A DNA stretch of 64,000 nucleotides from Morinoia aosen (Eukaryota; Arthropoda; Malacostraca; Amphipoda; Talitridae): positions 69,066,201-69,130,200 of the forward strand of contig CM059562.1 in the NCBI GenBank assembly GCA_030386875.1, in the 5' to 3' direction. The notes under the pieces are model-generated. The model ran no database searches and had not been told where the DNA came from. It saw only the letters and a list, made by a program, of their open reading frames with translations. Both the position numbers and the translations under genes were made by a program. Positions 15,901 to 62,707 of the stretch are shown one piece after another. Each line of letters opens with the position of its first letter. The first letter of the stretch is position 1.

Positions 15901-18900
15901 GACGGAGGATGTTGATGTGGCACCTGCTCACGCTGTGCAAACTGGTGATAATTTTGTTCATTTTGTTGGTGCACAAACTTCATTGAGCTGAATTTCTATT
16001 TTACTTATTGTATTGCTCCTTTATTCATGCCACACAAAGATTGTTGCCTTGAATTTGTGGGTTAGTGTGACACTAGCTTTGTTACCCTGAAATTGCAGGA
16101 CGTAATTTTTGTTACCCTGAAATTGCAGGACGTAATTTTTGTTACCCTGAAATTGCAGGACGTAATTTTTGTTACCCTGAAATTGCAGGACACAATTTTT
16201 GTTATCCTGAAATTGCAGGACACAATTTTTGTTATCCTGAAATTGCAGGACACAATTTTTGTTATCCTGAAATTGCAGGACACAATTTTTGTTATCCTGA
16301 AATTGCAGCACACAATTTTTGTTACCCTGAAATTGCAGCACACAATTTTTGTTACCCTGAAATTGCAGCACACAATTTTTGTTACCCTGAAATTGCAGCA
16401 CACAATTTTTGTTATCCTGAAATTGTAGGACGCTAGTTTCATTGGTCTGAAATTGCAGGATGCTAGTTTCATTGGTCTGAAATTGTGGGACACTGGTTTC
16501 ATTGGTCTGAAATTGTAGAACTCTGGTTTAGAGATGTGACTCAAAAAAAACCATGCCGTTTTTTTAAAAAAAAAACACGTTTTTTATTTACAAAAAAAAA
16601 CGTGGTCAAAAAAATGTGGATATTTTGTTTTTTTTTTAAATATCTTGTCTGAAAATAACTCAGCAAGAAAAAGAACCACATAACATTATTTGTTTTCATG
16701 TCAAATTACAAAATAAAACAGCATACTTCTTAATTGATGGTTTTCCATGGTTTTATGAAATTTTTCATTTTCTGTGGTTTCATGCTTTGATATTTCATTT
16801 ATTTTACAATACATGTGAATGACCTTCAACTCCCAAAATGGTGTGTTATTATAACATATCTTTACTTATGGTCATTGATAGAGATGTGACTAAAAAACCA
16901 TGCTGTTTTTTTTTAAAAAAATGTTATTTATACAAAAATTATGACTAAAAAACATGGATATTAATATATTTATGTGACCTTAAAAATCCAATGCTTTTTT
17001 TTTAAACATTGTTTTTTAACAGAAAAATCTTTACTAAAAAAACATGGCTATTATATTTTATGGGACCAAAAAAATTGTTTTTTTAAAAACATTTAAAAAA
17101 AATCATGATTAAAAAACACGGATGTAAATATCCGGAAAGTTAGTTTTCTTTAATCAAATTGTCTTTAGAAACTTATAAACAAAGAATGCTGTTAATATTG
17201 AAATCATGTTTATTAGAACTGTACTAGGTCTTAGAATAAAATATCTACAAAGAATCTCTTCACTCCATAAAACCTTTCGAAGACCAGCTCCATCCTCAGT
17301 CATTCAGTAAAATTTGGTGAAATAGACAATGAATTTTCACTGTTCCTTTGAAAAACATTTGACTGAATGACTTGCTGAGCATGGAGCTAGTCTCCGAAAG
17401 GTTTTATGGAGTGAATAGGTTCTTTGTGGATATTTTATTCTAAGACCTGGTACGGTTCTAATGGATATTAATATATCTTATGTGACCAAAAAATCCATGC
17501 TGTTTTTTGAAAGTTTTTGTTCAATAAAAGTCATGACTAAAAAACACGGATATTAATATACTTTATTTTACATAAACACCCATGCTGTTTTTTGGAAAAA
17601 CATCTTTTTTACAGAAAAATCATGATTAAAAAATGTGGATATTAATATATTTTATGTGCCAAAAAAAAACCATGCTGGTTTTTTTAAATCATGTTTTCTT
17701 TACCAAAAAAATCATGACTAAAAACATGGATATTAAGGAGACCGCCCCAGGCCCTTGACAGATGCTGTCGATTCCATGGTCATTTTGCATGCTTTTGTTG
17801 TAAAAGGACCCTTAGGTGGTAGACTATTCGTTCCTAAAATTTTATGGCGCTACGGACAATAATTTCCCCCCCCCCCGGGGGGGGGTAAGGCGACCAAATT
17901 TTCTCAATTTTTCCGATTTTGACCCCACATAAAAAGAGAACAAATAGGAAATGGAAAAAAAGCTCAATTTGAGTTTGTTAGAAATGTTTCAAGGATTCTA
18001 AAACGGTCTTTGCTTTTGCTCTAGCATCAAAACTGAAGGAGGAGTTCCATTATGAAATATCAATATTAGTGAAATATCAATATCTGAAAACCAATATGTC
18101 TAATTTTTGCAAAATATAAGGCCTGAATCAAAAAAATGAATAGAATCAATTGTTTATTTTCAAAGGTTACATATCATAGTCAAATTTTATAAGAATCAGA
18201 CTGAAAAAAAAAAATTCATTTTGTTGAAAAAAAAGATGTTTTTTTTTTTGTTTTGAAATCACAATTCACACTTTGAATATGAAGTTATGTATGGAAATTA
18301 TCAAAATAAAAATTAAAACTGCATTCAATTACATCAATTGTTCATTATATTACACTTCAACACAAAATTTTATTTTTTGCTTATACCCAACACTTTGAAT
18401 TTTCAACATTCATCCTGGGACTAGTTCTCAAGTTTTGATGCTAGAACAAATCCAAAGACAGGTTTAGAATCCTTGAAACATTTCTAACAAACTCAAATTC
18501 GGCTTTTTTTCAAATTCGAATTCTTTGAAAAAATATATAGCTCTAAACCCAAAAAAATGTTGCTGATTTTTGAAATATCAAAAATTTTTGAAAAATAGAA
18601 AAAATTTGAATTTCAAAAAAAGCCGAATTTGAGTTTGTTAGAAATGTTTCAAGGGTTCTAAAACTGTCTTTGTTTTTGTTTTACCATCAAAACTGAAGGA
18701 GGAGTTCCAATCTGAAATTTCAATAAAAATATACCAAATACACATTTTTCGTCAATAAAAAAAAAAGTAAGGCCTAAATCGAAAAAATGACAGGAGTAAA
18801 AAAGGTTTACTTTTACAAAATACATATACTGGCCAACTTTCAAACGAATCGGACTAAAAAAGTTGAAAAAGTGGGACGGTCTCCTTAACGACTTTTTGTG

Positions 18901-21900
18901 AAATAAACATGGTTTTTAAAATGTCATGTTTTTTTGGTCAGATAAAATTTAATAACACTCATGTTTTTTTGTAAAACTTTTTTTTTTCAAAAAGCATGGT
19001 TTTTTGGTCACATAAAATAAATTAATATCCATGTTTTTTTTACAGATTAAATTAGTCATTAGTTTTAGCCTCCCTACCCAGCAACAAATGCGATCCAAAG
19101 AGAGGAAGGAAGATTATGAAACAAGATCGAAGTTGAAGAAGACAGTAGTAGGTGCTGAAAAACAGGACAGCAGTGAACCGAAAAAAGGTAGTTCTCAACA
19201 TAACAAAAAACATTTTATTTCAACAAAAAGGAGGCTTACCTAACTCTCAGCATGGGTCCACACATTGTCCCCCTGGGAGCGCTAGTTCCCATAGATACAA
19301 TAATTGTATCCCCCTGAGGGGTGGTGTTTTTTTTTGCAAAGAAGTCGTGACCAAAAAATGAATAATAATAACTTTTTTAATAAAAAAACATGTTTTACGA
19401 AAAACAATGATTTTTTTGGTAACATAAAATATGTTAATATCCATGATGTTAAGACACGATTTTTATGAAAAATACATAGAATAAAACAGCATGGTTTTTT
19501 GGTCGCATAAAATACATTCATATCCAGGTTTTCTTATAGATCATTGTTTGTAAAAAAAACATATTTTTTAAAAACTAGCATGGGGTTTTTTAGATCTCAA
19601 ATATATTTGTTTTTTAGTCCTGATTTTTTAGTACAAAAACATTTTTTTGGTCTCATAAATATATTATTCATGTTTTTTCAGTCATGATTTTTTAGTAAAA
19701 ACATGTTTTCTTTTTAATAAACTGCATGGGGCTTTTTAGGTCACATAAAATATATTGTTTTTTAGTCATGATTCTTTGTAAAAAAAGCATGGTTATATTT
19801 GGTACCAGAAAATATATTAATATTCATTTTTATTAGTCAGATTTTTTGTAAAAAAAACATGTTTTTAAAAAACAGCATATTTTTTGGGCCACCAAAAATA
19901 TAATATCTATGGTTTTTAATCATTTTTTTGTAATGAAAACAAAAAAAGAAACCATAGAGTAAAAGTGGTGGCAGATAACCCACAATTACCTAGAGGAGTC
20001 TAAGAGGTACAGCAGGAGCCACAGAACTTATATTGATGGAGTCAAAATTCAGAGCTTATTATCACTGCAAAGTCTGATTTTTTTGGTCACATAAAAATAA
20101 AATCAGACATAGTAGAGATAGTAAGCTCTGAATTTTGACTCCATCAATATAAGTTCTATGGCTCCTGCTGTTCCTCTTAGACGCCTTCAGGTAATTGCGG
20201 GTTATCTGCCACCACTTTTACTGTATGGTTTCTTTTTGATGTTTTTATAACAATAAAATGACTAAAAAACATGGATATTAATATATTTTAGGTATCCATA
20301 AAAAAAACCAGACATATACTTGACAAAATTTAGGTGTGCAAAAAAAACAAAAAAAAACACATAAAAAACATGTTTTTTTTTTGCAAAAAAAACGCAATCA
20401 AATAAAACCGTTTTTTTTTGCATCACTATTCTGGTTTCATTGGTCTGAAGTTGTGGGACTTTGGTTTTATTGGTCTGAAATTGTGGGACTTTGGTTTCAT
20501 TGGTTTGAAATTGTGGGACTTTGGTTTCATTGGTTTGAAATTGTGGGACTTTGGTTTCATTGTTCTGAAATTGTGGGACTTTGGTTTCATTGGTCTGAAA
20601 TTGTGGGACTTTGGTTTCATTGGTCTGAAATTGTGGGACTTTGGTTTCATTGGTCTGAAATTGTGGAACTTTGGTTTCATTGGTCTGAAATTGTGGGACT
20701 TTGGTTTCATTGGTCTGAAATTGTGGGACTTTGGTTTCATTAATCTGAAATTGTGGGCCTTTGGTTTCATTGGTCTGAAATTGTGGGACTTTGGTTGCAT
20801 TGGTCTGAAATTGTGGGGCACTGGTTTCATTGGTCTGAAATTGTGGGACACTGGTTTCATTGGTCTGAAATTGTGGGACACTGGTTTCATTGGTCTGAAA
20901 TTGTGGGACACTGGTTTCATTGGTCTGAAATTGTGGGACACTGATTTCATTGTTGTGAACTCAGTAGTAGAGTGAAATATCTGTAGCTGAGTTTCACCTC
21001 TACAAATGGTATATAGTACGCATAGGAAGTAGTAACATCTTCAATGAGAAGCTTTCATTCAAATTTGCATTGAGCGTGTACCCATTGGTAGGCACTTGGG
21101 TTTTATGTTACTGTGTACTGCATCTTTCTTGTGCAGAAGAATAGTTTCTTAGTGTACGTTTGCCACCACGATAATGTCATTATTTATACTCTCTAAGGTA
21201 ATATTTATAAATGCTTCACTGGATTAGGAGGCCGATCAGTTTTCAGTGATGGGCAATATTATTATAGACATTTTGAGGGGCAAGTCACTACAGTGACAAA
21301 ATATAGAAATGCGTTTGCTGTGTAGTGTACTGAGTTTCTTGCTGCGTCAAAAGTAAGTGTGCAATCTAAATTGCATGCACACTTTCAAAATTATTTGCAT
21401 TTGAAGTGCATAGCTTACTTGTTGTAGTGTAGCTTTCTACTTTCATGAGTGTAACCTACATGACTTATGTAAGTTTCTCAAATTCAGGTATTGTTAACTT
21501 TGTGTAAATCATTTACTTATATACAGGGTGTTTCAAAACATGAAGTACAAAATTGCACATCAAGTAGAAAATGCTGAAATAAACATTTTTTCTTATGTAA
21601 ATTTTCTGAAAAAATTTGAGTTTTTGAGGTATTAATTGTTTGTTTTAAAGGATGAAATTTAAGGACACAATTACTAGCAATATTTATTTGAATTTACTCT
21701 AAAAAAAATTGTTCAAAATGGGTTACACCTGCATCAATGCACTTTTCAAATCTAACTTAGTCTTACGGCCGCCAGATTTTAGGAAACACGTCTGGTATTT
21801 TGGAAATCTCACCAGGAGCCACAATTCTGACCATGTCTTCTTCAGATTCAATAGGTGTAGCATAAACAAGGCTCTTCATGTGTTCCCCCAAAAAGAAATC

Positions 21901-24900
21901 AAGTGGAGTTATGTCAGGAGATCTAGGAGACCATGCAGCAGGACCATTTTGCCCGATCCATCTGTTAGGAAATTGACCATTCAGGTAATTTTGGACAATA
22001 AAAATTTCATCTTTTAAAACAATAAACAGCTTGTATCTCAAAAATTGAAATTTTTTCAGAAAATTTCAAAGGAGAAAAAGTGTTTATTTGGCCATTTTCT
22101 ACTCGGTGTGCAATTTCTTACTTCTTGTTCTGAAACACCCTGTTTAATCATTTATACGCCAGTTTTTAGTTTTCAATCTTCTTAACTTAAAAATCATGTG
22201 CTAATAATAATAATAATAATAATAATAATTAGCAGGACCTGTGGAAATTCCACGGACAATGTCATCAATAAGCTTTGGGGACCGGTGAGAAAATTCCGTC
22301 AACATTATTTAAAAAATTTGAACATGACAAATTCTAACCTATCTTGTCCTAACATATGCTAACCAAATCTATCCTAACCTAACATATCCCATCCTAACCT
22401 AACTTTAACCAACGTCATCCTAAGGCTAGGTGGACCCGTAAAAAAATTTGGTCAATATTACCTAACAAATTCTTACATAACATATATTAACCTAACACAT
22501 CCAAAACTAACATATACTAACCTATCCTGTCTCAACGTATCGTATCCTAAGTGAAGCTATCTTGATAATTAGGAAAACATAAAAAGCATCAACCTGTAAA
22601 AAATTTCGTCGACATAATCTACCTAACCTACCCTAACCTAATATATCCTAACCTGCCCCAACCAAAGCTATACTGATATGTGAAAAATAAAAACGTGTAC
22701 CCGTTAAAAAATTTCCTCAACATTATCTAACAAATTCGACCATAACCCATTCTAACCTAAGCTATCCCAACCTAAAATATTCTAACCTAACTCTTCCTGA
22801 CCTAAGCTAACCAAATCTATCATGAAAATATGTCAAACATGAAAAGCGTGGACCCTTGATAAAATTCTGTCAACATTATCTAACCTATCCTGACCTAACA
22901 TATCTTAACCAATCCTATCCTGATAATATGACAAACATAAAAAACCGTGAATCCGTAAAAAATTTAATCGACATAATCTACCTAACCTATGCTAACCTAA
23001 CCTATCCTAACCTACCCTAATCGAAGCTATACTGATGATATGTCAAAAATAAAAAACAGTGTCCCCGTGCAAAAATTTCATCAACATTATCTAACAAATT
23101 CAACCATAACCCATTCTAACCAAAGCTATAGCTCCTAACCTAACATTCTAACCTATCTCTTTCTGACCTATTTAATTAAAGCCTATCCTAGCCTAACCCA
23201 TCCTATCCTAACCTATCCTATCCAAACTTATTCTATCCTATCCTATTCTATCCTATCCTATCCAAACATATCATATCCTAGCCTATCATATCCTAGCCTA
23301 TCATATCCTAGTCTATCATATCCTAGCCTATCATATCCTAGCCTATCATATCCTAGCCTATCATATCCTAGCCTATCATATCATATCCTAGCCTATCATA
23401 TCATATCCTAGCCTATCATATCATATCCTAGCCTATCATATCATATCCTAGCCTATCATATCATATCCTAGCCTATCATATCATATCCTAGCCTATCATA
23501 TCATATCCTAGCCTATCATATCATATCCTAGCCTATCATATCATATCATATCCTAGCCTATCATATCATATCATATCCTAGCCTATCATATCATATATCA
23601 TATCCTAGCCTATCATATCATATCATATCCTAGCCTATCATATCATATCCTAGCCTATCATATCATATCATATCCTAGCCTATCATATCATATCCTAGCC
23701 TATCATATCCTAGCCTATCATATCCTAGCCTATCATATCCTAGCCTATCATATCCGAGCCTATCATATCCGAGCCTATCATATCCTAGCCTATCATATCC
23801 TAGCCTATCATATCCTAGCCTATCATATCCTAGCCTATCATATCCTAGCCTATCATATCCTAGCCTATCATATCCTAGCCTATCATATCCTAGCCTATCA
23901 TATCCTAGCCTATCATATCCTAGCCTATCATATCCTAGCCTATCATATCCTAGCCTATCATATCCTAGCCTATCATATCCTAGCCTATCATATCCTAGCC
24001 TATCATATCCTAGCCTATCATATCCTAGCCTATCATATCCTAGCCTATCATATCCTAGCCTATCATATCCTAGCCTATCATATCCTAGCCTATCATATCC
24101 TAGCCTATCATATCCTAGCCTATCATATCCTAGCCTATCATATCCTAGCCTATCATATCCTAGCCTATCATATCCTAGCCTATCATATCCTAGCCTATCA
24201 TATCCTAGCCTATCATATCCTAGCCTATCATATCCTAGCCTATCATATCCTAGCCTATCATATCCTAGCCTATCATATCCTAGCCTATCATATCCTAGCC
24301 TATCATATCCTAGCCTATCATATCCTAGCCTATCATATCCTAGCCTATCATATCCTAGCCTATCATATCCTAGCCTATCATATCCTAGCCTATCATATCC
24401 TAGCCTATCATATCCTAGCCTATCATATCCTAGCCTATCATATCCTAGCCTATCATATCCTAGCCTATCCTCACCTAGCCTATCATATCCTAGCCTATCC
24501 TCACCTAGCCTATCCTCACCTAACTTATCCTCACCTAACTTATCCCATCGTATCCTAACCTAACTTATCCCATCGTATCCTAACCTAACTTATCCCATCG
24601 TATCCTAACCTAACTTATCCCATCGTATCCTAACCTAACTTATCCCATCGTATCCTAACCTAACTTATCCCATCGTATCCTAACCTAACTTATCCCATCG
24701 TATCCTAACCTAACTTATCCCATCGTATCCTAACCTAACTTATCCCATCGTATCCTAACCTAACTTATCCCATCGTATCCTAACCTAACTTATCCCATCG
24801 TATCCTAACCTAACTTATCCCATCGTATCCTAACCTAACTTATCCCATCGTATCCTAACCTAACTTATCCCATCGTATCCTAACCTAACTTATCCCATCG

Positions 24901-27900
24901 TATCCTAACCTAACTTATCCCATCGTATCCTAACCTAACTTATCCCATCGTATCCTAACCTAACTTATCCCATCGTATCCTAACCTAACTTATCCCATCG
25001 TATCCTAACCTAACTTATCCCATCGTATCCTAACCTAACTTATCCCATCGTATCCTAACCTAACTTATCCCATCGTATCCTAACCTAACTTATCCCATCG
25101 TATCCTAACCTAACTTATCCCATCGTATCCTAACCTAACTTATCCCATCGTATCCTAACCTAACTTATCCCATCGTATCCTAACCTAACTTATCCCATCG
25201 TATCCTAACCTAACTTATCCCATCGTATCCTAACCTAACTTATCCCATCGTATCCTAACCTAACTTATCCCATCGTATCCTAACCTAACTTATCCCATCG
25301 TATCCTAACCTAACTTATCCCATCGTATCCTAACCTAACTTATCCCATCGTATCCTAACCTAACTTATCCCATCGTATCCTAACCTAACTTATCCCATCG
25401 TATCCTAACCTAACTTATCCCATCGTATCCTAACCTAACTTATCCCATCGTATCCTAACCTAACTTATCCCATCGTATCCTAACCTAACTTATCCCATCG
25501 TATCCTAACCTAACTTATCCCATCGTATCCTAACCTAACTTATCCCATCGTATCCTAACCTAACTTATCCCATCGTATCCTAACCTAACTTATCCCATCG
25601 TATCCTAACCTAACTTATCCCATCGTATCCTAACCTAACTTATCCCATCGTATCCTAACCTAACTTATCCCATCGTATCCTAACCTAACTTATCCCATCG
25701 TATCCTAACCTAACTTATCCCATCGTATCCTAACCTAACTTATCCCATCGTATCCTAACCTAACTTATCCCATCGTATCCTAACCTAACTTATCCCATCG
25801 TATCCTAACCTAACTTAACCAATGTAATCGTTAAGCTAGGTGTACGCGTGAGAAAATTCGGTCAACATTAACCAGCAAGTTCTAACAACATATTTTAACC
25901 TAACCTATCCTAACATGTATACACTAACCTATCCTATGCTAACGGAAGCTTGCCTGATAATATGTCAAACATAAAAACCGTTGGCCCGTGAATAAATGTC
26001 GTCAACATTACGTAACCTATGCTAACTAACCTATCCTATCCTAACCTAACCTATCCTGACCTTACCTATCCTAACCTTACCTATCCTAACCTTACCTATC
26101 CTAACCTTACCTATCCTAACCTTACCTATCCTAACCTTACCTATCCTAACCTAACCGATCCTGATCTTGCCTATCTTATCCTAACTGAACTAATGTAATT
26201 GTTAAGCTAGGTGGACCCATGAAAAAATTCGGTGAACATTACCCAAGAGAATCTAAAATAACATGTTCCAACCTAGCCCATGCTAACCTAACATGTACCA
26301 ACCTATCCTATCCATTCTGCTTGTTTCCTTATGCATAGTATGTTCGTAGATACGATACCGCGAGTCACGGCGCCTTCATAGTAATGAGTAGAAATCCGTG
26401 TGGATTACACGGTTTCAATAATTAACTCACTTTCAAGCATATAAGGTTGAAGTATGAAGCAAATGTATTTTATTGGAATTCTTTGATTTGGAAAGATTCC
26501 TGAAATAATTACTGTAATTTTAAATCAAATTTTTGTGTAATGCAGAGTTTCAAAAAATGTAAGAAAAATGGAAGAAAAAATAAAATAAAAGAAAATAAAA
26601 AAGAAAAATGAACGAATAAATAGAGAAAATTGAAATAAAAAATTTTAATTGAATAAAAATAAAAAATAAAATTAGAATAAAAAAGATATTAAAAAATAAA
26701 TCAATAAAAATATATCATTGAACAAACTAAAAAATAAAACAGAAATAAATAAACAAAAAAATAAAAAAAACAATAAAAAAATAAAAATGAACAAAAAGCA
26801 ATAGAAAAAAGAAATAAACAACAAAATAATTGAATAAAATAAAAAATAAAAAAATAAAACAATTACAAATTGGGAATGAATAAAAAATTGAAAAATGAAT
26901 AATAATTACAAAAAAAATGAAAAGTTTTAAAAAAATTGAAAATTCAAAAAATAAATGAATAAAAAATAATTGAAATAAATTATATAATAATTACCAAATT
27001 AACAAAAGTTACAAATCAAGAATAAATTACCAAATAAAATAAAAATTAACGTATAAAAAGTACTTAATATAAAATAAATAATATAAATACCCTCCCCTAA
27101 CTCACCTATCCTATCAAGCCTTTTAGATGTAGAGCGTTACCCACGAATTTAGTTTTAAGCATATTAATATATAGATAATAATAATAATAATAATCTAAAG
27201 TTTGTCAGTGCCTTGAGAACGTTACACAATTACTCAAAATCCTATTCCATTAATAGCAAATTTGAGATGCTTCAATACCAATAATTCATATTACTGCTGT
27301 ATTTGATGATAGAGGGGAGAAATTATGTGGTAGTAGTGTGTAGAAAGGCACAAACCAAATTATGCCTTGCATTTTACAATGTTGAAAATTAAGTCTATGT
27401 GATGGTCACCATTGCTTTATTTGTGCAGAAGAAGATGAAAGTAAAACACTGCTACAGAGTGCACAGTTGCAGCTGAGTGCTGCACAGTCTGCAGTGTCTG
27501 CTCTGCAGGATGAAAAGAGTGGTCTGCTGCTTCAGCTGCAGCAACTACAGGTGCCTCACTCCCTGTCTTGCCTGTAGGTTACTCTTATTTTCTACTCTAA
27601 GTGTCCGTCTTCAACAGGCTGAGTGGAATCTTTCTTCTATTTCTGTAGCCTGAAAGCTGCTCTTTTCTCTCTCTCAGTTTCTGCCCTATAGTTTATGAGT
27701 TTATATTTCAAATTATGTTAGCTTTGCAGTTTCTGTTTCATCATGGTCACTTTTATGCGTCAATTTGATGCTAACCGTTTGCATGCAGCCTGTTGGCTAA
27801 AGATCACATCTTTTAATATTCTTGATGTGTAATAACTTGGATGTTAATTTGTTGGACAATCATTTATAAAGAAAGAAATGGTGCTGTCTGTGAAAAGCCT

Positions 27901-30900
27901 CTTAATGTATAAATCGGAGAGATCGTATTCAAGGCACTTTGTATCTCATTTCAACCAAACTTCATTTTTTTTATACAAGTACATTCATTTTATACAATCA
28001 ATGATTCAAGTGTAACAATTAAAATGAATTCATAATTAACCGTCACTAATTTTGCACGGGTGGCTGTGCATTTCATGAGCACTATCAACATACTCACTTT
28101 CCATTATTTGACAAAATTCCAAAACTTACCTAATTTTTCTCTCTTCACTACTCAGATAACCTCTCCAGCTCGTGACACACGACCGGAAGTTGCGGCGGTC
28201 ACTGTAGATACAGAGGCTGAGCCAAACCTGGTAGAGGAGGAGATGCAACACCTAAAGCTGGTGCGGGACAACCTGGAGGAGAGCCTGTTGCACAAGACTG
28301 CCCAGATCGCGGACCTGGAAGAGAGGTGTGGGCTGCTGCAGCAGGCCTGTAGCGAGCACGAGGCGCAGCTCCAGCGCTGTGCTCAACTCGTGCTCGGTTG
28401 TGAAGATCAGGTGCGGTGGTCATGAGTTTTGTGGGTACTCTTGAAGTGTCTGTAGCTTAAGCTGGTCTTCGACGCAATGCACAAGCGGCCCACAAACGAT
28501 CAATTTTATTGTCAATATAATTGACAATATTGGGCTTGATTGACGACCATCAAATAATTGACTTAGTGGGTAAAGAAAAAAATCTCGTCAATATATCGAG
28601 TCAATGATATTGACAATTAAATTGATCGTCTATGGGCCGCTTTAGAGTTTCCACGATGTAGCATTGCTACCGTGTGATATCTGAATCTGGTTGGTTGATG
28701 TACGGGTATGTATCACTACTGCTGGTGTGTTCGACACTACATGCACTTTTAATTTTAAGTGATGAATTTCTTTTAGGGTTTTTTTGGTGTAGCATTGCTA
28801 CCGCGTGGTATCTCAATCTGGTTGAAGTATCAGGTTGGTGCTTTAGTAATGTTCAATATTTAGAATGGATGTTTAAAATTAGTTTTGTCAATTATTTACA
28901 TTCTGTTGCAAGCGTCTAAACTAAACTATTTTTTTAAGATTATTTCTGTTACGTTCATCTTTTTCATAAATATTGGCAACCAAGTTTGTCCCAAAACATC
29001 TCATAAGAAATGTTCTACTGTACGAGTTTCATAAAGGTGTTAATACAAGTGCGGCAGCAAAATCTACCCAGAATACTTATGGGGATGATGTAATGAATGA
29101 AGGAATTTGTAGGAGATAATTTTCTCGTTTTTTAAGTGGTAATTTCACATTGAGAGATGATCCAAAGAAAGGTTGTCCTAGAACACTTGATTCTGATCAG
29201 TTGAATGTACTTGTGTCCAAGAATCGTACTGTCATCACTGGGGAAATTGCTAGACAGACTTAGCCCATACAACCTACTTCTAATTTCCGTTTGTTCCGAG
29301 GACTACTGAACCATTTTAATGGACTTGGTTAACAACAAGAGAAGAGATTGAAGGATTTGAATTTGTATTTTGATTTTAAATCTAGAGAATTTCACAAGCA
29401 AAGCAATTATAAGCTTATGAAAAGGTGGAATAAGGTCATTGAAACGAATGAAGAGAATGTTGATGAATAAATATTTCTATAGTCGATTTATTCATTTTTA
29501 CCCAAGATCTTAAAACGGATATGACTTTCGCACCCACCTGATAGTTTATGGTTAATGTAATGTCTTGGATCGTTTCCTAGTTATTTTAGGTTTCAACGTC
29601 TATTTACATCACCCACTGCTAATAAATATTATATATGATTTAATTTTGCGTATTTTAGGATTTGTTCTTAACAGTCAGTCATATTTTTTGATGCAAATAT
29701 TAGGGGCAAGGATAAACGAGTGAAAGATCCTTGAAATAAAATGAAAAATGTTTATGTTTCTATCCTTCATCCACCAAGACTCAAACCATTTGCTGTCTTA
29801 AAAAGGCCCCCTTATTATCTCTACTGCAAAACGGATCTTCCTAAATCAGGTTAAATTATTCAAACGTGTAGTTCAGTAAACCGTCACTAACTTCAATTTT
29901 GTGTTGCCAGACCACTTGCCCTGAGGACGATGAGGTTCTCTCCGACACAGCAGCCCGAGTATCCTCCCTCGTGCGCCGCTACCAAGCCTTGCTGGCCTCA
30001 CATGACTCTGTCTCTGCGGCACACCAGCACCAGCTCTCTGCTCTCAAGGAAGAACTTCAGCAGCTCAAAGATAAGGTCAGAATTGCTGCATACCTTGTTA
30101 TCAAAGTTGGGTTTTGGCTTGTTCAGAGAGGATAGGCTAGGCTATACTTTGTTGAGAAAGGTTAGGTAATGGTTTGTTGAGGAAGGTTAGGCTATTTCTT
30201 GTTAAGGAAAGTTTGGTTATGGCTGATGAGAAAGGTTAGGCTATGGGCTGTTGAGAAAGGTTAGGCTATGGGCTGTTGAGAAAGGTTAGGCCATAGCTTG
30301 TTAATTAAGAAAAATGAGGTTATGGCTTGTTAAAAATAGACGAGGTTATGGCTTGCCAAGAAAAGTTTGGGAATTACATATTTAGAACGAGTAGAAAATG
30401 CCTTGCATGAAAAAACCTTTCCTGTGCGGGAGAGGCTGCACTCAGATGGAGCGGTCGGGGTAAACCAGCTATGACTGTCGAGCCTGACTGTGGAAAAGGG
30501 TTGTGCTGGGCTGCTATTGATCCATGCAGTACTGGTGCGGCCTGTGCTGCCTCTCTCGCCTCCTAGTGTCTAAGGATGAATGATTGTAGCTTGCTGTCAG
30601 CTACCCTCGCGTAAGGAGGAAAAGCCTGGGATATGTATGTATGTAGAAATTACCCTCTAGAATGTCCAAATTACAGCATCTAGGATTTTATGAAAAGTTA
30701 TTGAAAATTAACTTGTTAAAATGGATAAAAATACCCTGTCAAGAATTGGGCATGCCTTTTCTGTATCTTAAGTTTACCTGTGTTTTTTAATTAAGAAAAA
30801 GCTATTTTTATACGGATATCTATCTAAGTTATAGATATGACCTAATTGAGATTATAAATTTTTTTATTTGTGATGAAAACATATTCAGCATACTCATTGA

Positions 30901-48900: not shown

Positions 48901-51452
48901 TTTTAAGGACCGTTATTTTACATGAGAGCCATGGTGGTGGACCCTGTTTTTGCTAGTGCAAAATTGGCCTCAATGATATCCCGAGTAACCACTGAATTAG
49001 CCACAGTTATGTTTTAGTATAGAGTTGGTAGGTCTCTTCATTCTCTCCTGCTTTTCTGTAGTGAGAAATGCTATGTTCCGCACAACCGAACGTCCGCACA
49101 AGTTCTTTCAGTACATTTTCTATTTCATTTTAAAGTTTTAATCGCTTTGTGGTACTTCCTCCTGATGTTAAAGCGAATTTGAAACATATTGGCATTGAAC
49201 GACAATTTTATAATAAAAATAGTTCTTTCCAACATTGGAGCATATCCACTCTAACATTTTTTCCTTTTCTTTCATTCAAGTGCGGAGTTGATGTAAGGGT
49301 TAGTGTGCGTATTCACTGAATTTGAACATGACAGATCAATAAGGCTGTTTTTATAATACTTTAAAATAATTTGATATTGTTATGAATTTCATTCATGTTG
49401 AAAATAATTTTCCACTAATATTAAGGCTCTCACATCTCTAAGTCAAAAGATTTTTGTATACGTGATGACTACATAAGATAAGTACTTCATACCTGAATGC
49501 GTTTCACTAACCGAGAATTTTGATGGACCATCTTAAGTTAAGTATGTCGAAACTTGCCAGTTGGATACTGTCAGCAGCGCTCGCCATCCTTCACAATGAA
49601 ACACTCAGGGCTGAAACTGGTAGGAGAAAACTGCTTGGGTACGTTTAAATATTTTTCCAGCATTAATGCACATAACGGAATTTAAATTTCAGGAGCAGCT
49701 AGAAAACTACGAAGCTGAGAGAAATAACTTACTGAGCTCAAAAACCGCAGCTCAGAAGGAAGTTGAGGATCTGAGCATGAAATACGCTTCTCTTTTGGGC
49801 CATCAGAACCATAAGCAGAAGATACAGCATGTCGTCAAACTAAAGGAAAATAATCTGAAGCTTCAGGAGGTGAGTTTATTGTGCTGTTATGGTCATCGTT
49901 GTTGCTAGAAAATATAAAGAGAATTATAATGGCCGTGTGTCTTGATTGAATATTGAAAAGACTCTTATAACCGTATAATAATGAAGAAACCCGTTGTTTT
50001 TCTTTTGATGATATAGAAGAGCAGTTCATTTTTACTCTTGTCTTTCTTCTTTGTGAAGTTCCCCTAATGGGTATTGTTCTTCTATGCATATAAAGAACTT
50101 AGTGATTGCATAAGCTACATTTTTCTCACGCGATTCTCAGTGATGGTCCAAGCGCTTGTATGTAAACTTCTCAGATGTAAACTGAACCATCTGCAGTAAA
50201 TCTGAAAGCACTGGTTGTAAAAAATCTGAGTTTTGTTTAAGTTAACTTTACTTTATTGTACATTTGAATTTTTCCTTTTCGTTCTTCTGAAAGGTGTTCA
50301 ACTAATCTTTTATCGATTACGGGTTAGGGTCAAGTTCCTTTTCCCCTGAATGCACTAACATGGTTCTCCCATGGTTTTGATGCGGGGTGACCTTCATTAG
50401 TTTAACTGCTTCTCTTGAACTGGATGCGTTAACGTGCTGGTCTGACCCAACGCGTAAAATTAAAATGATTAGGGTTTTTTTAATAAACCTGTTCTTTCGC
50501 CACATTGAGGTCAGAGATTTAATAATTTTTTTACCAATGAAAATAATAAATACTTTCTCATTCTTTCAACATACTGGAGATAAGAATGAGCAATAGTTAA
50601 TTTCGTCATTTCTAACTTTTATTACTACATCATATTCATGTTTTCTGTCATCGAAACGTAAATCACGTTTTATTTTTGGTTTCCTGAAGAATTTTTTCTT
50701 GCATTAATCACAACACATCACTTAGTTGCCAACAAACCTGATACGTTGACTTAAGTTAGTTATCTGTAAGTTATGAGTCCTGTGAAGTTGTTTGGTGTCG
50801 TTTGAGATTGTACATTGCGTTCGCTGTTCAGAAGGTTAGAGCAAAGGAACAGGGAGCTCTTTGCGAATAACCCCTCAGGGAGATACAACTATTGTATGTA
50901 TGGGGTTGATACTCTGAGGGGAAAACTGTCAGGTCCCGAGCTGGAAGTTAGGCAGGAATTCTTTTGTTCAAGTAGAATAGGCTTTTTTTTAGGAACCATT
51001 TTTTTCGGTTCACTGGTCCTGTTTTTCAGTACCCATTATTTTCTTTTTCAATGTATATCTTGTTTCATAAACTTCCTTCGTAACTTAGTTTCTATGCGCA
51101 GGGGATCTTGTGTGGTAACACACCTTGTGCTTAGATTCCGTGTTCCCTCAACTCCATACTACTTGGTGCCTTCTTCCTTCCTCCCTTTGGAGCACCTTTG
51201 TTGTGGTTAGGGAGGAAGAAACAAATCTAATTTCTATCATAACTTTTTCAGGAGGTATTCAAGCTTCGATCAGACAACGACAAGCAACGTAAAGCTATTC
51301 GGCGCTTGGAGGAGCGACTCGGTGATAGCGACCACCGCAAGACGCTGGCTGGTGTGAGTGTGCCTCAAATGGCCAGTAAGACCAATAAAGAGAACGTGGA
51401 AGTTGTTGCGCGTTCGCCTTTGCGACCTAGTAACAAGTTGGATAGACTGTGA
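9929..51452 (+). CDS. HMMR: HMMR/RHAMM orthologue (hyaluronan-mediated motility receptor family), 23 coding exons
   Basis: Exons: 9929-9971, 13922-14019, 14501-14692, 15233-15366, 15841-15944, 27429-27550, 28156-28410, 29911-30075, 30934-31101, 32074-32271, 33652-33756, 34668-34751, 37008-37441, 38509-38665, 38996-39116, 40276-40424, 42519-42926, 43853-43960, 45157-45285, 46413-46528, 47911-48052, 49693-49869, 51252-51452. They total 3,810 bases with every splice phase compatible, giving about 1,269 residues (vertebrate HMMR is about 725). Identity rests on the N-terminal KRFNEEVGCAPAPTAYDPK (residues 8-26) and C-terminal YASLLGHQNHKQKIQHVVKL (about 1180-1200), both distinctive of HMMR, plus a KEN motif near the end. 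The middle is nearly continuous Glu/Lys/Leu/Gln coiled coil. In vertebrates HMMR binds microtubules through the N-terminus and reaches centrosomes and spindle poles through the C-terminal basic zipper. I infer the same mitotic role here. The 44-codon segment at 19056-19187 could be a cassette exon. Confidence 0.9.
13922..14019 (+). CDS. HMMR: HMMR coding exon 2
   Basis: Acceptor TTTCAG, donor GTAAGT, phase 1 to 0. It encodes the family signature GCAPAPTAYDPK and a basic tail RWKVNKE (residues 15-47). The P-x-P-x-A-Y-[DN] core resembles sperm-tail PG-rich (STPGR) repeats and lies in the microtubule-binding N-terminus known from vertebrates. Confidence 0.9.
14501..14692 (+). CDS. HMMR: HMMR coding exon 3
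   Basis: 64 codons, phase 0-0, acceptor TATTCTCAG, donor GTGAGT. It starts with a second copy of the P-x-P-x-A-Y motif (NIPAPNAYNPVKGPP), followed by a Ser/Asn/Cys-rich low-complexity stretch and a basic end (CKKDGFLK). Confidence 0.85.
15233..15366 (+). CDS. HMMR: HMMR coding exon 4
   Basis: Acceptor ATCCAG, donor GTACCT, phase 0 to 2. Encodes PTNTRLTRGDSVRSSS and then the start of the coiled coil (KIEKETLLKTLQQDKEELQ), equivalent in position to the first coiled coil of vertebrate HMMR. Confidence 0.85.
15841..15944 (+). CDS. HMMR: HMMR coding exon 5
   Basis: Acceptor TTCAATGCAG, phase 2 to 1 with donor ACTG/GTGATA. It continues the coiled coil (RLASLEQERP) and then leaves it: SVCNVSDKQAQTEDVDVAP. 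The KQAQTED stretch fits the LC8 dynein light chain ligand pattern (K-x-[TVA]-Q-T-[ED]). The donor is weak, so the 3' edge is the least certain of the early exons. The frame reads on to a stop at 15986. Confidence 0.75.
16081..16525. repeat. 30-bp minisatellite, left block (~15 copies)
   Basis: The unit GTTACCCTGAAATTGCAGGA plus CGTAATTTTT is repeated head to tail. Copies fall into homogeneous sub-blocks (CGTAA, CACAA with TACCC or TATCC), and the last three or four shift to the GGTTTCATTGGTCTGAAATT form seen in the right block at 20428. Because 30 is a multiple of three, long ORFs open on both strands (16021-16544); these are artefacts. Confidence 0.95.
17212..17470. repeat. Hairpin element (~110-bp inverted arms)
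   Basis: The left arm reads GGTCTTAGAATAAAATATCT, then CACTCCATAAAACCTTTCGA, AGCTCCAT and GTCATTCAGT. The right arm is its reverse complement with few changes (ACTGAATGAC, ATGGAGCT, CGAAAGGTTTTATGGAGTGA, ATATTTTATTCTAAGACC). The loop is about 50 bp. Confidence 0.85.
17733..18890. mobile_element. Non-autonomous TIR element flanked by TTAA
   Basis: Left end TTAAGGAGACCGCCCC and right end GGGACGGTCTCCTTAA are inverted and both abut TTAA, as in piggyBac-type insertions, although TIR sequence alone cannot prove the superfamily. Inside are three copies of a ~90-bp module (GAGTTTGTTAGAAATGTTTC ... CATCAAAACTGAAGGAGGAG): direct at 17965-18055 and 18618-18710, inverted at 18420-18510. It also contains a C11G9 block. 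No transposase frame. Confidence 0.6.
17866..17885. repeat. C11G9 homopolymer palindrome
   Basis: Eleven C followed directly by nine G, a 20-bp all-GC self-complementary run inside very AT-rich repeat DNA. Confidence 0.9.
19056..19187 (+). CDS. HMMR: Possible HMMR cassette exon (uncertain)
   Basis: The frame encodes a strongly charged, protein-like segment (QQQMRSKERKEDYETRSKLK ... DSSEPKK) ending at donor AAAAAAG/GTAGTT in phase 1, which fits the exon at 27429. An acceptor at 19055 (ATTAG) would make it 132 bases, phase 1-1, an in-frame 44-codon cassette after exon 5. Better-looking acceptors at 19045 and 19081 give phase 0 and would need a different exon 5 donor. The HMMR frame is intact when it is skipped. 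Confidence 0.4.
19247..19330 (-). repeat. Fragment of interspersed repeat head (CCCCTCAGGGGGATACAA family)
   Basis: Read on the minus strand this is CCCCTCAGGGGGATACAATT followed by ATTGTATCTATGGGAACTAG and CTCCCAGGGGGACAATGT. It matches plus-strand copies at 44135 and 50872. Confidence 0.75.
19945..20235. repeat. Hairpin element (~120-bp inverted arms)
   Basis: Left arm: AAAGTGGTGGCAGATAACCC, GCAGGAGCC, TATTGATGGAGTCAAAATTC. Right arm is the reverse complement (GAATTTTGACTCCATCAATA, GGCTCCTGC, GGGTTATCTGCCACCACTTT). The loop carries the GGTCACATAAAA phrase of the surrounding complex. Confidence 0.85.
20428..20955. repeat. 30-bp minisatellite, right block (~17 copies)
   Basis: The unit GGTTTCATTGGTCTGAAATT plus GTGGGACTTT is in the same orientation as the left block at 16081. 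The 3' copies switch homogeneously to GTGGGACACT. Long overlapping ORFs on both strands (up to 185 codons) are products of the 30-bp period. Confidence 0.95.
21524..22142 (-). mobile_element. Internally deleted mariner/Tc1-like element
   Basis: Ends are CAGGGTGTTTCAAAA and, inverted, TTCTGAAACACCCTG. The inverted similarity continues inward for about 110 bp (AAATTGCACA, AGTAGAAAATG, AATAAACA, TTTTCTGAAAAAATTT). The left flank ends in TATA. The interior holds a transposase remnant on the minus strand. It is too short (619 bp) to be autonomous. Confidence 0.8.
21763..22041 (-). pseudogene. Transposase C-terminal remnant (DDE/DDD, IS630-Tc1-mariner type)
   Basis: The minus-strand frame contains FPNRWIGQNGPAAWSPRSPD and ITPLDFFLGEHMKSLVY. 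The W-x-x-R-S-P-D-[IL]-x-P-L-D-F-F-L pattern is the final catalytic-Asp region of insect mariner-like transposases. The frame then runs into EEDMVRIVAPGEI, the usual C-terminal sequence with indels. The N-terminal and first catalytic regions are missing. Confidence 0.75.
22202..22229. repeat. (AAT)n microsatellite at left edge of satellite region
   Basis: About nine TAA/AAT units. A similar (AAT)n tract sits at 27177-27194 beyond the satellite and A-rich tract. Confidence 0.9.
22278..23230. repeat. Higher-order satellite repeat, left flank (~100-155 bp unit)
   Basis: At least seven units each begin with a phrase like GGACCCGTAAAAAAATTT, then CGTCAACATTATCTAAC, then degenerate runs of CCTAA, CCTAT and CCTAAC, and close with TGATAATATGTCAAACATAA. 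Starts fall near 22278, 22432, 22590, 22698, 22850, 22948 and 23063. Confidence 0.8.
23231..24530. repeat. 15-bp satellite TATCATATCCTAGCC with 20- and 25-bp variants
   Basis: About 75 head-to-tail copies. Near the left end, units carry one or two extra ATCAT pentamers, so unit length changes in steps of 5 bp. The right end degenerates into CTCACC variants that grade into the 25-bp array. Confidence 0.95.
24531..25815. repeat. 25-bp satellite TAACCTAACTTATCCCATCG+TATCC (~51 copies)
   Basis: Almost perfectly homogeneous array. Each unit contains CCTAACCTAA, two copies of the arthropod telomere pentamer (TTAGG on the minus strand), plus CCTAT/CATCG pentamers. Confidence 0.97.
25816..26335. repeat. 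Higher-order satellite repeat, right flank, with a 15-bp CTATCCTAACCTTAC sub-array
   Basis: Three more units of the left-flank type (starts near 25842, 25982 and 26212) enclose about seven copies of a 15-bp unit at 26045-26150. The pure arrays are therefore embedded inside one higher-order family. Confidence 0.85.
26560..27095. repeat. A-rich low-complexity tract (AAAATAAA-like, almost no C or G)
   Basis: Plus strand is nearly all A with T and rare G/C (AAAATAAAA, GAAATAAA, TGAATAAA). It contains dozens of AATAAA-like strings that should not be read as poly(A) signals. Confidence 0.9.
27177..27194. repeat. (AAT)n microsatellite at right edge
   Basis: About six units. Mirrors the tract at 22202. 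Confidence 0.85.
27429..27550 (+). CDS. HMMR: HMMR coding exon 6
   Basis: Acceptor TTTGTGCAG, donor GTGCCT, phase 1 to 0. Encodes EEDESKTLLQSAQLQLSAAQ and a Leu/Gln-rich heptad coil. Spliced to exon 5 it forms AVQTEEDES, a second LC8-like motif. Confidence 0.85.
28156..28410 (+). CDS. HMMR: HMMR coding exon 7
   Basis: 85 codons, phase 0-0, acceptor CTACTCAG, donor GTGCGG. An acidic linker (ITSPARDTRPEVAAVTVDTE) is followed by coiled coil (EEEMQHLKLVRDNLEESLL). GC-rich relative to flanking introns. Confidence 0.88.
28483..28642. mobile_element. MITE with ~40-bp terminal inverted repeats
   Basis: Left end AAGCGGCCCACAAACGATCA then ATTTTATTGTCAATAT. The right end is the inverse (ATATTGACAATTAAAT, TGATCGTCTATGGGCCGCTT). 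160 bp, no coding capacity. Confidence 0.85.
28650..28833. repeat. Two direct copies of a ~45-bp segment
   Basis: TGTAGCATTGCTACCGTGTG ... ATCTGAATCTGGTTG at 28655 recurs at about 28787 as TGTAGCATTGCTACCGCGTG ... ATCTCAATCTGGTTG. Confidence 0.7.
28925..29540 (+). pseudogene. Mariner transposon remnant (deleted, inactivated)
   Basis: From about 29000 the plus strand reads as a mariner transposase DNA-binding domain (LLYEFHKGVNTSAAAKS, YGDDV, SRFLSGNFTLRDDPKKG, GEIARQT) with one internal stop. After a large deletion a transposase C-terminus follows (REFHKQSNYKLMKRWNKVIE, ending at a stop near 29470). The catalytic core is missing. The distal sequence ACCCAAGATCTTAAAACGGA resembles a terminus that recurs at 59615. 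Confidence 0.8.
29911..30075 (+). CDS. HMMR: HMMR coding exon 8
   Basis: 55 codons, phase 0-0, acceptor GTTGCCAG, donor GTCAGA. Encodes TTCPEDDEVLSDTAARVSSL and coiled coil ending LKEELQQLKDK. Confidence 0.88.
30135..30360. repeat. Degenerate ~25-28 bp tandem repeat
   Basis: Unit GTTGAGAAAGGTTAGGCTAT plus GGGCT, about eight copies. The two central copies are identical and the outer ones diverged. Confidence 0.8.
30405..30655 (+). mobile_element. Probable SINE/LINE 3' end with (ATGT)n tail
   Basis: A GC-rich island in AT-rich intron (CTGTGCGGGAGAGGCTGCAC, GGAGCGGTCGGGGTAAACC, CTACCCTCGCGTAAGGAGGA) ending GGGATATGTATGTATGTAG. A simple-repeat tail after a GC-rich body is typical of retroposons. 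The family is not identified. Confidence 0.5.
30934..31101 (+). CDS. HMMR: HMMR coding exon 9
   Basis: 56 codons, phase 0-0, acceptor CTTTTCAG, donor GTTTGT. Coiled coil (ILEYEKEVPRLLSEATERER, KVKELDLLTKEKDLM). Confidence 0.88.
32074..32271 (+). CDS. HMMR: HMMR coding exon 10
   Basis: 66 codons, phase 0-0, acceptor CCTCATTCTAG, donor GTGTGC. Ala/Glu-rich coiled coil (LSLLEEAYTAMETKLSEAEA). Confidence 0.88.
32935..33625. repeat. Two diverged ~190-bp direct copies in intron 10
   Basis: Copy at 32935-33125 and copy at 33428-33622 share TTTCGAGTATGGAAATAA, GTCAGAATGC, TTTTTTGCCAGGAACA and GAATTTGAGTA. The spacer between them contains an interspersed repeat copy. Confidence 0.75.
33190..33410 (+). 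repeat. Unnamed interspersed repeat, copy 1
   Basis: Shares TTTTTCAGTACC, TTTTATCTTGTTTCATAA, GATTCTATGCGCACGGGATC, CTCCTTACTAAATG and TTGTTGTGGTAAGGAAGGCT with copies at 36530, 37600, 43470, 44230 and 50872. Confidence 0.75.
33652..33756 (+). CDS. HMMR: HMMR coding exon 11
   Basis: 35 codons, phase 0-0, acceptor TTGTTTCAG, donor GTTATT. Coiled coil (ISASEQKAEELSQELGATRR). Confidence 0.85.
34668..34751 (+). CDS. HMMR: HMMR coding exon 12
   Basis: 28 codons, phase 0-0, acceptor TTTTATCACAG, donor GTAAAC. Encodes VLVLRASLAAKDYDVDERDE and KIMALKEE. Confidence 0.85.
34791..35148. repeat. 28-bp minisatellite (~12.5 copies)
   Basis: Unit TAGAACATAGAAATGGTGAC plus CATCAGAC, with CCTAG and CATTAGAC variants clustered at the ends. 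It begins 39 bp after the exon 12 donor. Confidence 0.95.
35742..36311. mobile_element. TIR element with 6-bp target duplication
   Basis: Perfect 16-bp inverted ends CAGGGTGCGTACAGGC / GCCTGTACGCACCCTG, flanked on both sides by TTTATG. Subterminal inverted phrases (AAAGTAGTGGAATTTT, AGTCATGAA) continue inward. The core (about 35890-36090) is GC-rich and contains two GATTGGTT (CCAAT) boxes and a TCACGTGA palindrome. No transposase, so non-autonomous. The end sequence resembles hAT-like elements, but those make 8-bp duplications. Confidence 0.85.
36530..36770 (+). repeat. Unnamed interspersed repeat, copy 2 (diverged)
   Basis: Shares TTTTTTTCAGCATCTGATTT, TTCTTCTTGAACTTTTGTT, GTGTATAGATTCG, CTCCTTCCTGTCTT and TTAGGGAGGCGTGAACTAAC with the family. 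Confidence 0.65.
37008..37441 (+). CDS. HMMR: HMMR coding exon 13 (largest)
   Basis: 434 bases, phase 0 to 2, acceptor CTTTTGAAG, donor GTGAGT. Long uninterrupted coiled coil (TELVSDLQSMVACHKTSEAD through LEQKIVELMAELEDSEADHV), residues about 557-700. Confidence 0.9.
37600..37770 (+). repeat. Unnamed interspersed repeat, copy 3
   Basis: Shares CTTACTGCTTCTATGCGCGC, GGGATTCTGTG, CACAGATTG, ACTCCATACTAAATG, TCCTTCCTCTCTTT and TAGTAAGGGAGGTTGAAACT. Confidence 0.75.
38509..38665 (+). CDS. HMMR: HMMR coding exon 14
   Basis: Phase 2 to 0, acceptor CTCTCAAG, donor GTGCTG. Encodes KLKEALSEVDDLSNQYSDSL and RRALALTSEEHERM, resembling the QFESYKALTASE region of vertebrate HMMR. Confidence 0.88.
38996..39116 (+). 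CDS. HMMR: HMMR coding exon 15
   Basis: Acceptor ACATTTCAG, donor T/GTAAGG, phase 0 to 1. Encodes VKADLQNAKREARDRTNECQ and ELEDSLRRLTDKYSAFEQAK. The donor two bases earlier (GTGTAA) would break the frame into the next exon, so GTAAGG is chosen. Confidence 0.85.
40276..40424 (+). CDS. HMMR: HMMR coding exon 16
   Basis: Acceptor GTGTGTGTAG, donor GTGAGC, phase 1 to 0. Encodes SEEAERTELMRRLQVELELS and KQSLSELQQEVCALQ, coiled coil. Confidence 0.85.
40529..41250. repeat. 36-bp minisatellite with embedded CACGTG E-boxes (~20 copies)
   Basis: Unit GGTACCTATTTCCTACCTTG plus GTATTCTGTTGCACGT. Variation is TTCC/TTTTATA and GCACGTGG/GTACGTGG. Ten copies contain CACGTG and most contain GGTACC. All three plus frames stay open for about 245-266 codons because 36 is a multiple of three and the unit lacks stops. 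These are not genes. Confidence 0.95.
42519..42926 (+). CDS. HMMR: HMMR coding exon 17
   Basis: 136 codons, phase 0-0, acceptor TTGAATCCAG, donor GTACGG. Long coiled coil (QDLKKKSAAIEESKECIEVL, then AKAEAERQMEVKQYVEKQEV), GC-rich. The 160-codon open frame on the opposite strand (42501-42983) is a shadow of it. Confidence 0.9.
43470..43640 (+). repeat. Unnamed interspersed repeat, copy 4 (diverged)
   Basis: Shares GAGTTTCTATGCATTG, CTGTACTAAATGGTTCC, CTCTTTTCGGATCGC and TTAGGGAGTCTTAGCATAAC with the family. Confidence 0.6.
43853..43960 (+). CDS. HMMR: HMMR coding exon 18
   Basis: 36 codons, phase 0-0, acceptor ACGCACAG, donor GTATGT. Coiled coil (IQTLELEVTELSAAKTNAEE). Confidence 0.85.
44135..44485 (+). 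repeat. Unnamed interspersed repeat, copy 5 (with head)
   Basis: Starts CCCCTCAGGGGGATACAACT ATTGTATC, then contains a 12-bp perfect stem (AGGGCCCGAGCT, loop CTC, at 44199-44225), then the body shared with other copies (TTTTTCAGCACCTACTACTT, CTCCTTACTAAATGGTGCCT, CTCTTTGGATCGCCTTTG). Confidence 0.75.
45157..45285 (+). CDS. HMMR: HMMR coding exon 19
   Basis: 43 codons, phase 0-0, acceptor TTCGCACAG, donor GTGTGT. Ala-rich coiled coil (GELADAKKREAESLAALATL). Confidence 0.85.
46413..46528 (+). CDS. HMMR: HMMR coding exon 20
   Basis: Acceptor TTTCCTGCAG, donor GTGAGT, phase 0 to 2. Coiled coil (QKDEAEKALAATQEQTQALQ, SERRTRDALTE). Confidence 0.87.
46688..47695. mobile_element. Composite repeat, copy A, with minus-strand LINE fragment
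   Basis: Outer blocks 46688-46815 and 47618-47690 recur in the same orientation in copy B at 48316-48440 and 48641-48710. Between them the minus strand reads as the C-terminal part of a non-LTR retrotransposon polyprotein: YGTFVVPLVSYESEMW, KKRSNVLEMNEVSGKYGK, RDEEVRS, ELAGRVDCRVL, then YDRGVTLKEARRCGMERDER toward the end. Frames are broken upstream of 47258. Confidence 0.7.
47911..48052 (+). CDS. HMMR: HMMR coding exon 21
   Basis: Acceptor TGCGGCAG, donor GTATGG, phase 2 to 0. It ends DDEKREWKRKCAVLEKLVEP FR, aligning with the N-K-W-R-L-L-Y-E-E-L ... K-P-F region preceding the conserved C-terminal domain of vertebrate HMMR. Confidence 0.87.
48316..48710. mobile_element. Composite repeat, copy B, with plus-strand LINE fragment
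   Basis: The outer blocks match copy A in direct orientation. The inner 48450-48640 reads on the plus strand as a retrotransposon fragment (ISCFEYLEKRLTANGKLNMR), the segment preceding the one in copy A. The LINE part is therefore in opposite orientation in the two copies. Confidence 0.65.
49693..49869 (+). CDS. HMMR: HMMR coding exon 22 (signature domain)
   Basis: 59 codons, phase 0-0, acceptor AAATTTCAG, donor GTGAGT. Contains YASLLGHQNHKQKIQHVVKL followed by KENNLKLQE, almost residue for residue the most conserved part of HMMR: the basic zipper needed for centrosome/spindle-pole targeting, overlapping the BX7B motif (K-QKIQHVV-K) named for hyaluronan binding in vertebrates. Confidence 0.95.
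50872..51215 (+). repeat. Unnamed interspersed repeat, copy 6 (with head)
   Basis: Head CCCCTCAGGGAGATACAACT ATTGTATG, then the body TTTTTCAGTACCCATTATTT, TTTCTATGCGCAGGGGATCT, CAACTCCATACTACTTGGTG and TTGTTGTGGTTAGGGAGGAA. It ends about 35 bp before the exon 23 acceptor. Confidence 0.75.
51252..51452 (+). CDS. HMMR: HMMR coding exon 23 (stop)
   Basis: Acceptor AACTTTTTCAG, phase 0, 66 codons and TGA at 51450-51452. Encodes EVFKLRSDNDKQRKAIRRLE and ends NKENVEVVARSPLRPSNKL DRL. The KEN tripeptide and following basic-Pro tail sit at the same distance from the end as K-E-N in vertebrate HMMR, a likely APC/C degron. The TGA overlaps a GTGAGT donor-like string, but the length agrees with the family, so I take the stop as real. 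Confidence 0.88.
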   Translation, partial: EVFKLRSDNDKQRKAIRRLEERLGDSDHRKTLAGVSVPQMASKTNKENVEVVARSPLRPSNKLDRL

Positions 51453-62588: not shown

Positions 62589-62707
62589 CCCGGAGTAGCC
62601 GGAGCCGTTCATGCCCGGCATGCCGTATCCACCCATACTGGACTCGTCCCCAGGGGGTGGAGACATCATGGGTCCGGGCGTCCCGCTCATACTGTAGGGC
62701 GATGCTC
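62589..62707 (-). CDS. exd: Extradenticle (PBC-class TALE homeobox) exon following the homeodomain
   Basis: 119 bases, phase 1 to 0, acceptor CGTTCAGCAG and donor GTAAGT (both on the minus strand). Encodes GASPYSMSGTPGPMMSPPPG followed by a Gly/Met/Ser-rich tail (DESSMGGYGMPGMNGSGYSG). GASPYSM ... PMMSP ... directly follows the homeodomain in insect Exd, where the Gly codon is likewise preceded by Lys-Lys-Ala-Ala. Exd is a nuclear Hox cofactor that binds DNA with Hox proteins and Homothorax. Upstream exons with the PBC and homeodomain should lie past 64000. The longer minus frame (62559-62810) is intron read-through on both sides. Confidence 0.85.

Follow-up and report, generated by a model that had tools for sequence, protein, structure and literature searches.

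Two kinds of tandem repeat stand close to the locus described here, a block of about 4 kb in the amphipod Morinoia aosen: minisatellites grown from pentanucleotide repeats, and composite or higher-order satellites, in which a complex unit holds an internal simple-repeat tract and a uniform middle lies between decayed flanks, as in the block. The block occupies positions 22278-26335 of the window, by which we mean the whole 64,000-nucleotide stretch that was analysed (assembly GCA_030386875.1, contig CM059562.1, positions 69,066,201 to 69,130,200 of the forward strand), and is situated in an intron of HMMR. Arthropod (AACCT)n repeats, as portrayed for penaeid shrimp in excerpts of PMC3124438 and PMC7878876, belong to the same pentamer class and likewise form long arrays; the same excerpts place long simple repeats within introns of shrimp genes, as shown there for other motifs. 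Short interstitial telomeric sequences share with the block a telomere-like word at an internal site (PMC9693754, in excerpt), and foldback elements or miniature inverted-repeat transposable elements (MITEs) such as Tetris resemble it in combining a conserved, non-repetitive piece with tandem tracts inside the element (PMC4079207). Excerpts of PMC3152781 are a further source on the subject.

Pentamer phase and two layers of repeats

We found that the block matches itself better at lags that are multiples of five (mean 0.628) than at the other lags between 1 and 60 (mean 0.218). When each part was compared with 500 of its own dinucleotide-preserving shuffles, the observed 5-bp score was reached by none of the 500 in the left flank (22278-23180), the 15-bp array (23250-24500), the 25-bp array (24526-25820) and the distal right flank (26176-26335); the proximal right flank (25824-26015) is more weakly phased, with 2 of 500 shuffles reaching its score. 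The five-base periodicity proposed in a first-pass annotation of this DNA is therefore borne out by self-match lags and shuffles alike. Words of the form [CT]CTA[AT] keep a constant phase inside the pentamer tracts and shift across the boxes that separate them (see below), so that no single continuous pentamer lattice runs through the block. Distances between successive words are multiples of five in 32 of 41 cases in the left part, 190 of 191 in the arrays and 25 of 30 in the right part, where the word and distance counts take in the second 15-bp array. A pentamer-derived minisatellite is characterized by unit lengths that are multiples of five and by self-match at such lags, and the block conforms to this save for one unit of 27 bp; the earlier statement that every unit length is a multiple of five is correct for the 15-, 20- and 25-bp units and fails for that one.

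The three arrays that had been proposed, namely a 15-bp array with 20- and 25-bp variants, a 25-bp array and a second 15-bp array, were all recovered by Tandem Repeats Finder (TRF) at the expected positions (Table 1). Cut after each CCTAGCC, the region 23240-24526 yields 53 exact 15-mers, 10 units of 20 bp, four of 25 bp and one of 27 bp. Long variants account for 15 of the 72 units that remain once the two end pieces of the split are dropped; all of them fall in one run, and none of 20000 shuffles is as clustered. The variants differ by whole CATAT pentamers, the 27-bp unit excepted, and phase is held within tracts, in agreement with the suggestion that the arrays diversified by pentamer steps. 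The 15-bp array also keeps private variants (one AGTC unit, two CCGAG units and the 27-bp unit). At its junction with the 25-bp array (24466-24540) we observed hybrid units, two copies of TATCCTCACCTAGCC and two of TATCCTCACCTAACT, with one plain unit between. The 25-bp array itself consists of 50 consecutive letter-identical 25-mers, with zero differences over 1250 bp, followed by a 51st copy with 5 mismatches. TRF counts 51.9 copies at 99% match; the earlier figure was about 51 near-identical copies. Of four strands folded as single-stranded DNA, three gave 0 kcal/mol; the fourth, the G-rich one of the 15-bp array, reached -5.9 kcal/mol, and 15 of 200 shuffles were equally good.

Around these arrays lies an older layer. 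Ten stretches flanking the large arrays (pieces of about 80-165 bp, cut by hand) can be aligned as a single repeat in which 19 columns are invariant, each unit comprising a box of about 30 bp, with a consensus of about GTGGACCCGTGAAAAAATTTCGTCAACATTA, and a CCTAA/CCTAT-type pentamer tract. In leave-one-out searches a profile of nine units recovered the omitted one every time (10 of 10, E 7e-9 to 6e-18), the profile columns being taken from the alignment that contains all ten units. The box columns alone did the same in 10 of 10 cases (E 9e-7 to 0.004), and their matches beyond the block had E values of 0.34 or worse. The higher-order repeat claimed for the flanks is thus real, and in its tandem head-to-tail units of common descent it resembles a satellite DNA family. 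Pairwise identity among the old units averages 0.705 (range 0.568-0.879, n=45). With E values up to 10 allowed, the full unit model gave 60 matches, of which many fall inside the arrays; beyond the block, it found a single match within the window, at 30171-30129 on the minus strand, with E 0.15. A fuzzy scan for the box core, which returned 4 of the 10 boxes together with chance-level matches elsewhere on both strands, was superseded by these profile searches. In viral_contigs, neither the 25-mer nor a CCTAA/CCTAT run nor the box had any match (0, 0 and 0), which says little for an animal genome.

Probable growth in place and its alternatives

We consider it likely that the block arose where it stands, as a tandem-repeat locus growing neutrally, and that some of its tracts were recently re-amplified. 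This reading accommodates the pentamer phase, the old units, the uniformity of the 25-bp array and the clustered variants, all of which are observed directly. An old complex repeat would have formed first, each unit joining a box of about 30 bp to a CCTAA/CCTAT-type tract, and decay would then have brought its units down to about 70% identity. The 15-bp array, the highly uniform 25-bp array and the second, short 15-bp array would have come afterwards, through re-amplification of some of the pentamer tracts. The processes at work may have been replication slippage and unequal exchange; since self-match in this DNA peaks at multiples of five, they would produce new units whose lengths are multiples of five as well. 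The clustered long variants, the uniform 25-mers and the hybrids at the junction would be the residue expected from such slippage and unequal exchange between neighbours. The proposed order of events is consistent with the contrast between the old units, at their mean identity of 0.705, and the 25-bp array, in which 1250 bp hold no difference. A function of the block is unlikely.

Several observations weigh against this reading. Pentamer slippage leaves the box unexplained, and the block is seen in one haplotype only. The source of the arrays is not evident in the flanks either. The closest flank match of the 25-mer (23 of 25 positions) lies at 22369, and the match of the 25-mer in the flanks scores 22, compared with a maximum of 14 among 40 letter shuffles; we nevertheless rejected the near-copy at 22369 as its source, since 10 of 60 random 25-mers made of pentamers match the flanks equally well. 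The 11 other orders of the 25-mer's own pentamers reach 20-22 matches there. In the left flank, and compared with letter shuffles, the TATCATATCCTAGCC 15-mer scores 11 (maximum 11) and the other 15-mer 14 (maximum 11), and in the flanks both only equal their one alternative pentamer order. The 25-mer and the 15-mers therefore do no better than the pentamer vocabulary as such, and descent of the arrays from a particular flank site is unsupported. As for the box, it might together with its CCTAA tract form a dispersed repeat that spread through this genome and brought telomere-like tracts into introns, where the tracts would re-expand in pentamer steps and the box would be the part kept or recognised; we hold this combined scenario to be quite unlikely.

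The pentamer itself raises the question of telomeres. The tracts could have begun as true (TTAGG)n that entered at a break or stayed behind after a rearrangement, and then have decayed and been re-amplified, an origin which we regard as doubtful but worth weighing. It would agree with the in-register pentamer consensus of the left flank, CCTAA (fifth base 67 A, 34 T and 3 C), with CCTAA being the commonest in-register word there (24 of 104), with the 57 occurrences of CCTAACCTAA in the window, all of them within the block and mostly in the 25-bp array, and with AACCT repeats being notably abundant in the shrimp Penaeus monodon, as stated in excerpts of PMC3124438. Yet a tandem run of the telomere repeat, with TTAGG as the assumed motif, is absent from the window, where both CCTAA x3 and TTAGG x3 occur 0 times; the boxes are not telomeric; and in the right part CCTAT is ahead of CCTAA (16 versus 13 of 62 words, second 15-bp array included). 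The description of the flanks as rich in CCTAA and CCTAT accordingly holds with CCTAA leading on the left, and with CCTAT in front on the right. A mixture of CCTAA and CCTAT is, moreover, found in bacterial contigs. Our scan of prokaryote contigs for a mixed CCTAA/CCTAT run retrieved four (L002, L003, L004 and L005), three of which are titled Ruminococcus or Oscillospiraceae: L002, with an array at 1258-1436 beside a gene for an RCC1-repeat protein; L003, with an array at about 4518-4598 beside a DUF1846 gene; and L005, with an array at 1141-1187 between an ABC transporter and an RnfC-like gene. Among 200 genomes from the family of the genome that contains L005 (G003), the tested run was present in 1, the seed genome itself. 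These arrays imply that the CCTAA word can arise without a TTAGG telomere, though rarely. Because a few bacterial contigs carry such arrays, similar CCTAA-rich arrays should not be called telomeric from sequence alone. A telomeric origin of the pentamer is possible but unproven, the alternative ancestry being chance. A CCTAA/CCTAT-type array was also noted at 587-644 of L012, another contig titled Ruminococcus or Oscillospiraceae. A plasmid search with the block gave three records (two of Escherichia coli, one of E. albertii), with 76.5-79.0% identity over 5-9% of the query; in the one of the three that was inspected no annotated feature lies beneath the match, and these are probably matches of repeat composition.

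The fourth contig, L004, bears on a different alternative, namely that the block is the remnant of a mobile element with a CCTAA tract. L004 (1241-1616, 376 bp) and L010 (469-820, 352 bp), two contigs of one metagenome-assembled genome, carry inverted-repeat elements of one family that are 90.7% identical over 387 aligned positions and have CCTAA tracts inside (11 CCTAA words in L004, 8 in L010). The L004 element is flanked by an 8-bp direct repeat, GTAATTTT, that resembles a target-site duplication; the L010 element has none. Although titled Campylobacteraceae, L004 appears to be animal-like DNA (its longest listed open reading frame (ORF) has 76 amino acids). The L010 contig, from the genome labelled Campylobacteraceae, is likewise animal-like. 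In Drosophila virilis, according to PMC4079207, satellites were seeded by foldback elements with internal tandem repeats. The block, however, gives little sign of such a past, which makes a mobile-element origin unlikely. Its edges (22151-22300 versus 26301-26480) show no significant similarity in 300 shuffles, either direct (p 0.10) or inverted (p 0.55), so that the terminal inverted repeats by which MITEs and foldback elements are recognised were not found in the edge-to-edge comparison; the direct value is also the one that bears on a target-site duplication, for block ends that are not exactly defined. The lack of similarity between the edges also speaks for growth in place. Of the 14 inverted pairs in 20960-27200, eight span the arrays, but these are short (14-32 nt, 72-93%) and lie off the edges, their significance against chance not having been assessed, and the match at E 0.15 is the best that the full unit model finds in the window outside the block. 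It is very unlikely that the 25-bp array is an artefact of assembly or polishing, with copies homogenised or their number wrong: 50 copies without a difference over 1250 bp are what over-polishing could give, but the adjacent 15-bp array retains its private variants and hybrid units are present at the junction. Most improbable is an influence on HMMR splicing or expression through branch-point-like CTAAC words and an AG-free stretch. The block does contain 155 of the 207 CTAAC occurrences in the window (and 0 of the 58 of GTTAG), and the longest plus-strand AG-free stretch of the window (24509-25833, 1325 nt) holds the 25-bp array and is rich in CTAAC; yet a single repeated unit accounts for both features, the next exon found begins about 1.6 kb beyond the AG-free stretch, with AGs intervening, and the other TTAGG-containing array of the gene (30134-30302) has the opposite orientation.

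Host gene and neighbouring features

The host gene is HMMR, as identified through its predicted C-terminal domain: the HMMR_C match improves to E 1.7e-27 when the translation of 49654-49884 is joined to that of the next exon. Matches to HMMR_N are weak and below the cut-off (E 0.012, 0.15 and 0.011). Candidate exons with coiled-coil-like translation extend on the plus strand from about 27.4 to 51.4 kb, with another candidate near 15.2 kb. By direct reading the block-bearing intron ends at 27428, and the placement of the block inside an HMMR intron is upheld by this 3' end and by the domain match. At the gathering score, Rfam gave no matches in the window, and short peptide patterns typical of arthropod repeats gave none either.

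A second 25-bp array, AGGTTAGGCTATGGGTTGTTGAGAA, is present at 30134-30302 in the same gene (6.8 copies, 78%). It is more diverged, contains GGTTAGG, carries the TTAGG word on the strand opposite to that of the block, and matches the unit model of the block weakly (E 0.15). Other minisatellites of the window have units of 30 bp (16078-16529 and 20432-20959), 28 bp (34789-35148) and 36 bp (40518-41222); the 28- and 36-bp units indicate that arrays elsewhere in the window do without the five-base rule. Just left of the block, 21520-22146 is an inverted-repeat element with 98-nt arms that are 79% complementary. Its minus-strand ORF at 21763-22041, with no Pfam match above the cut-off, is presumably transposase-fragment-like, and a minus-strand exon at 62592-62711, with no Pfam match, is one that we take to be SSBP-like.

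Table 1. Features of the repeat block and of its host gene, in window coordinates.
Feature	Position	Strand	Basis
Left part of the old repeat, seven decayed units with CCTAA-type tracts	22278..23181	+	Alignment; leave-one-out profiles, including box alone
Boxes of the left part (start positions)	22279, 22429, 22592, 22694, 22847, 22946, 23059	+	Profile search
15-bp array TATCATATCCTAGCC with 20- and 25-bp variants	23269..24465	+	TRF; tokenisation; clustering shuffle; ends by direct reading
Single 27-bp unit	23584..23610	+	Tokenisation; position by direct reading
Hybrid 15-bp units at the junction of the 15-bp and 25-bp arrays	24466..24540	+	Direct reading
25-bp array CCTAACCTAACTTATCCCATCGTAT	24554..25803	+	TRF; tokenisation
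Old units u8 and u9, right of the large arrays (boxes from 25839 and 25983)	25829..26025	+	Alignment; profiles
Second 15-bp array CTAACCTTACCTATC, 10.0 copies, 91% match	26026..26175	+	TRF
Old unit u10 (box from 26210)	26176..26335	+	Alignment; profiles
Predicted host coding exon closing the intron (AG before 27429, GT after 27550)	27429..27550	+	Splice sites by direct reading; coiled-coil-like translation
Stretch with the exon identifying HMMR	49654..49884	+	Pfam HMMR_C, E 3.3e-22 alone

Comparison with described repeats

Each of the systems that resemble the block also departs from it. Unlike the arthropod (AACCT)n arrays, the block is built of 15-, 20- and 25-bp units of mixed pentamers, has no CCTAA x3 and is surrounded by an older, box-bearing repeat. 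It differs from interstitial telomeric sequences in having no tandem run of the telomere repeat itself (with TTAGG assumed), and from foldback elements and MITEs in that no clear inverted ends were found at it. In contrast to composite satellites, it is known as one locus of about 4 kb inside a gene. No report of the 25-bp unit turned up in the literature on related repeats, in which no search was aimed at that unit. We place the block with a known kind of repeat, as a pentamer repeat that probably grew locally. It illustrates well how longer units may be built in place from a short telomere-like word, with copies that are old, hybrid or fresh lying next to one another.

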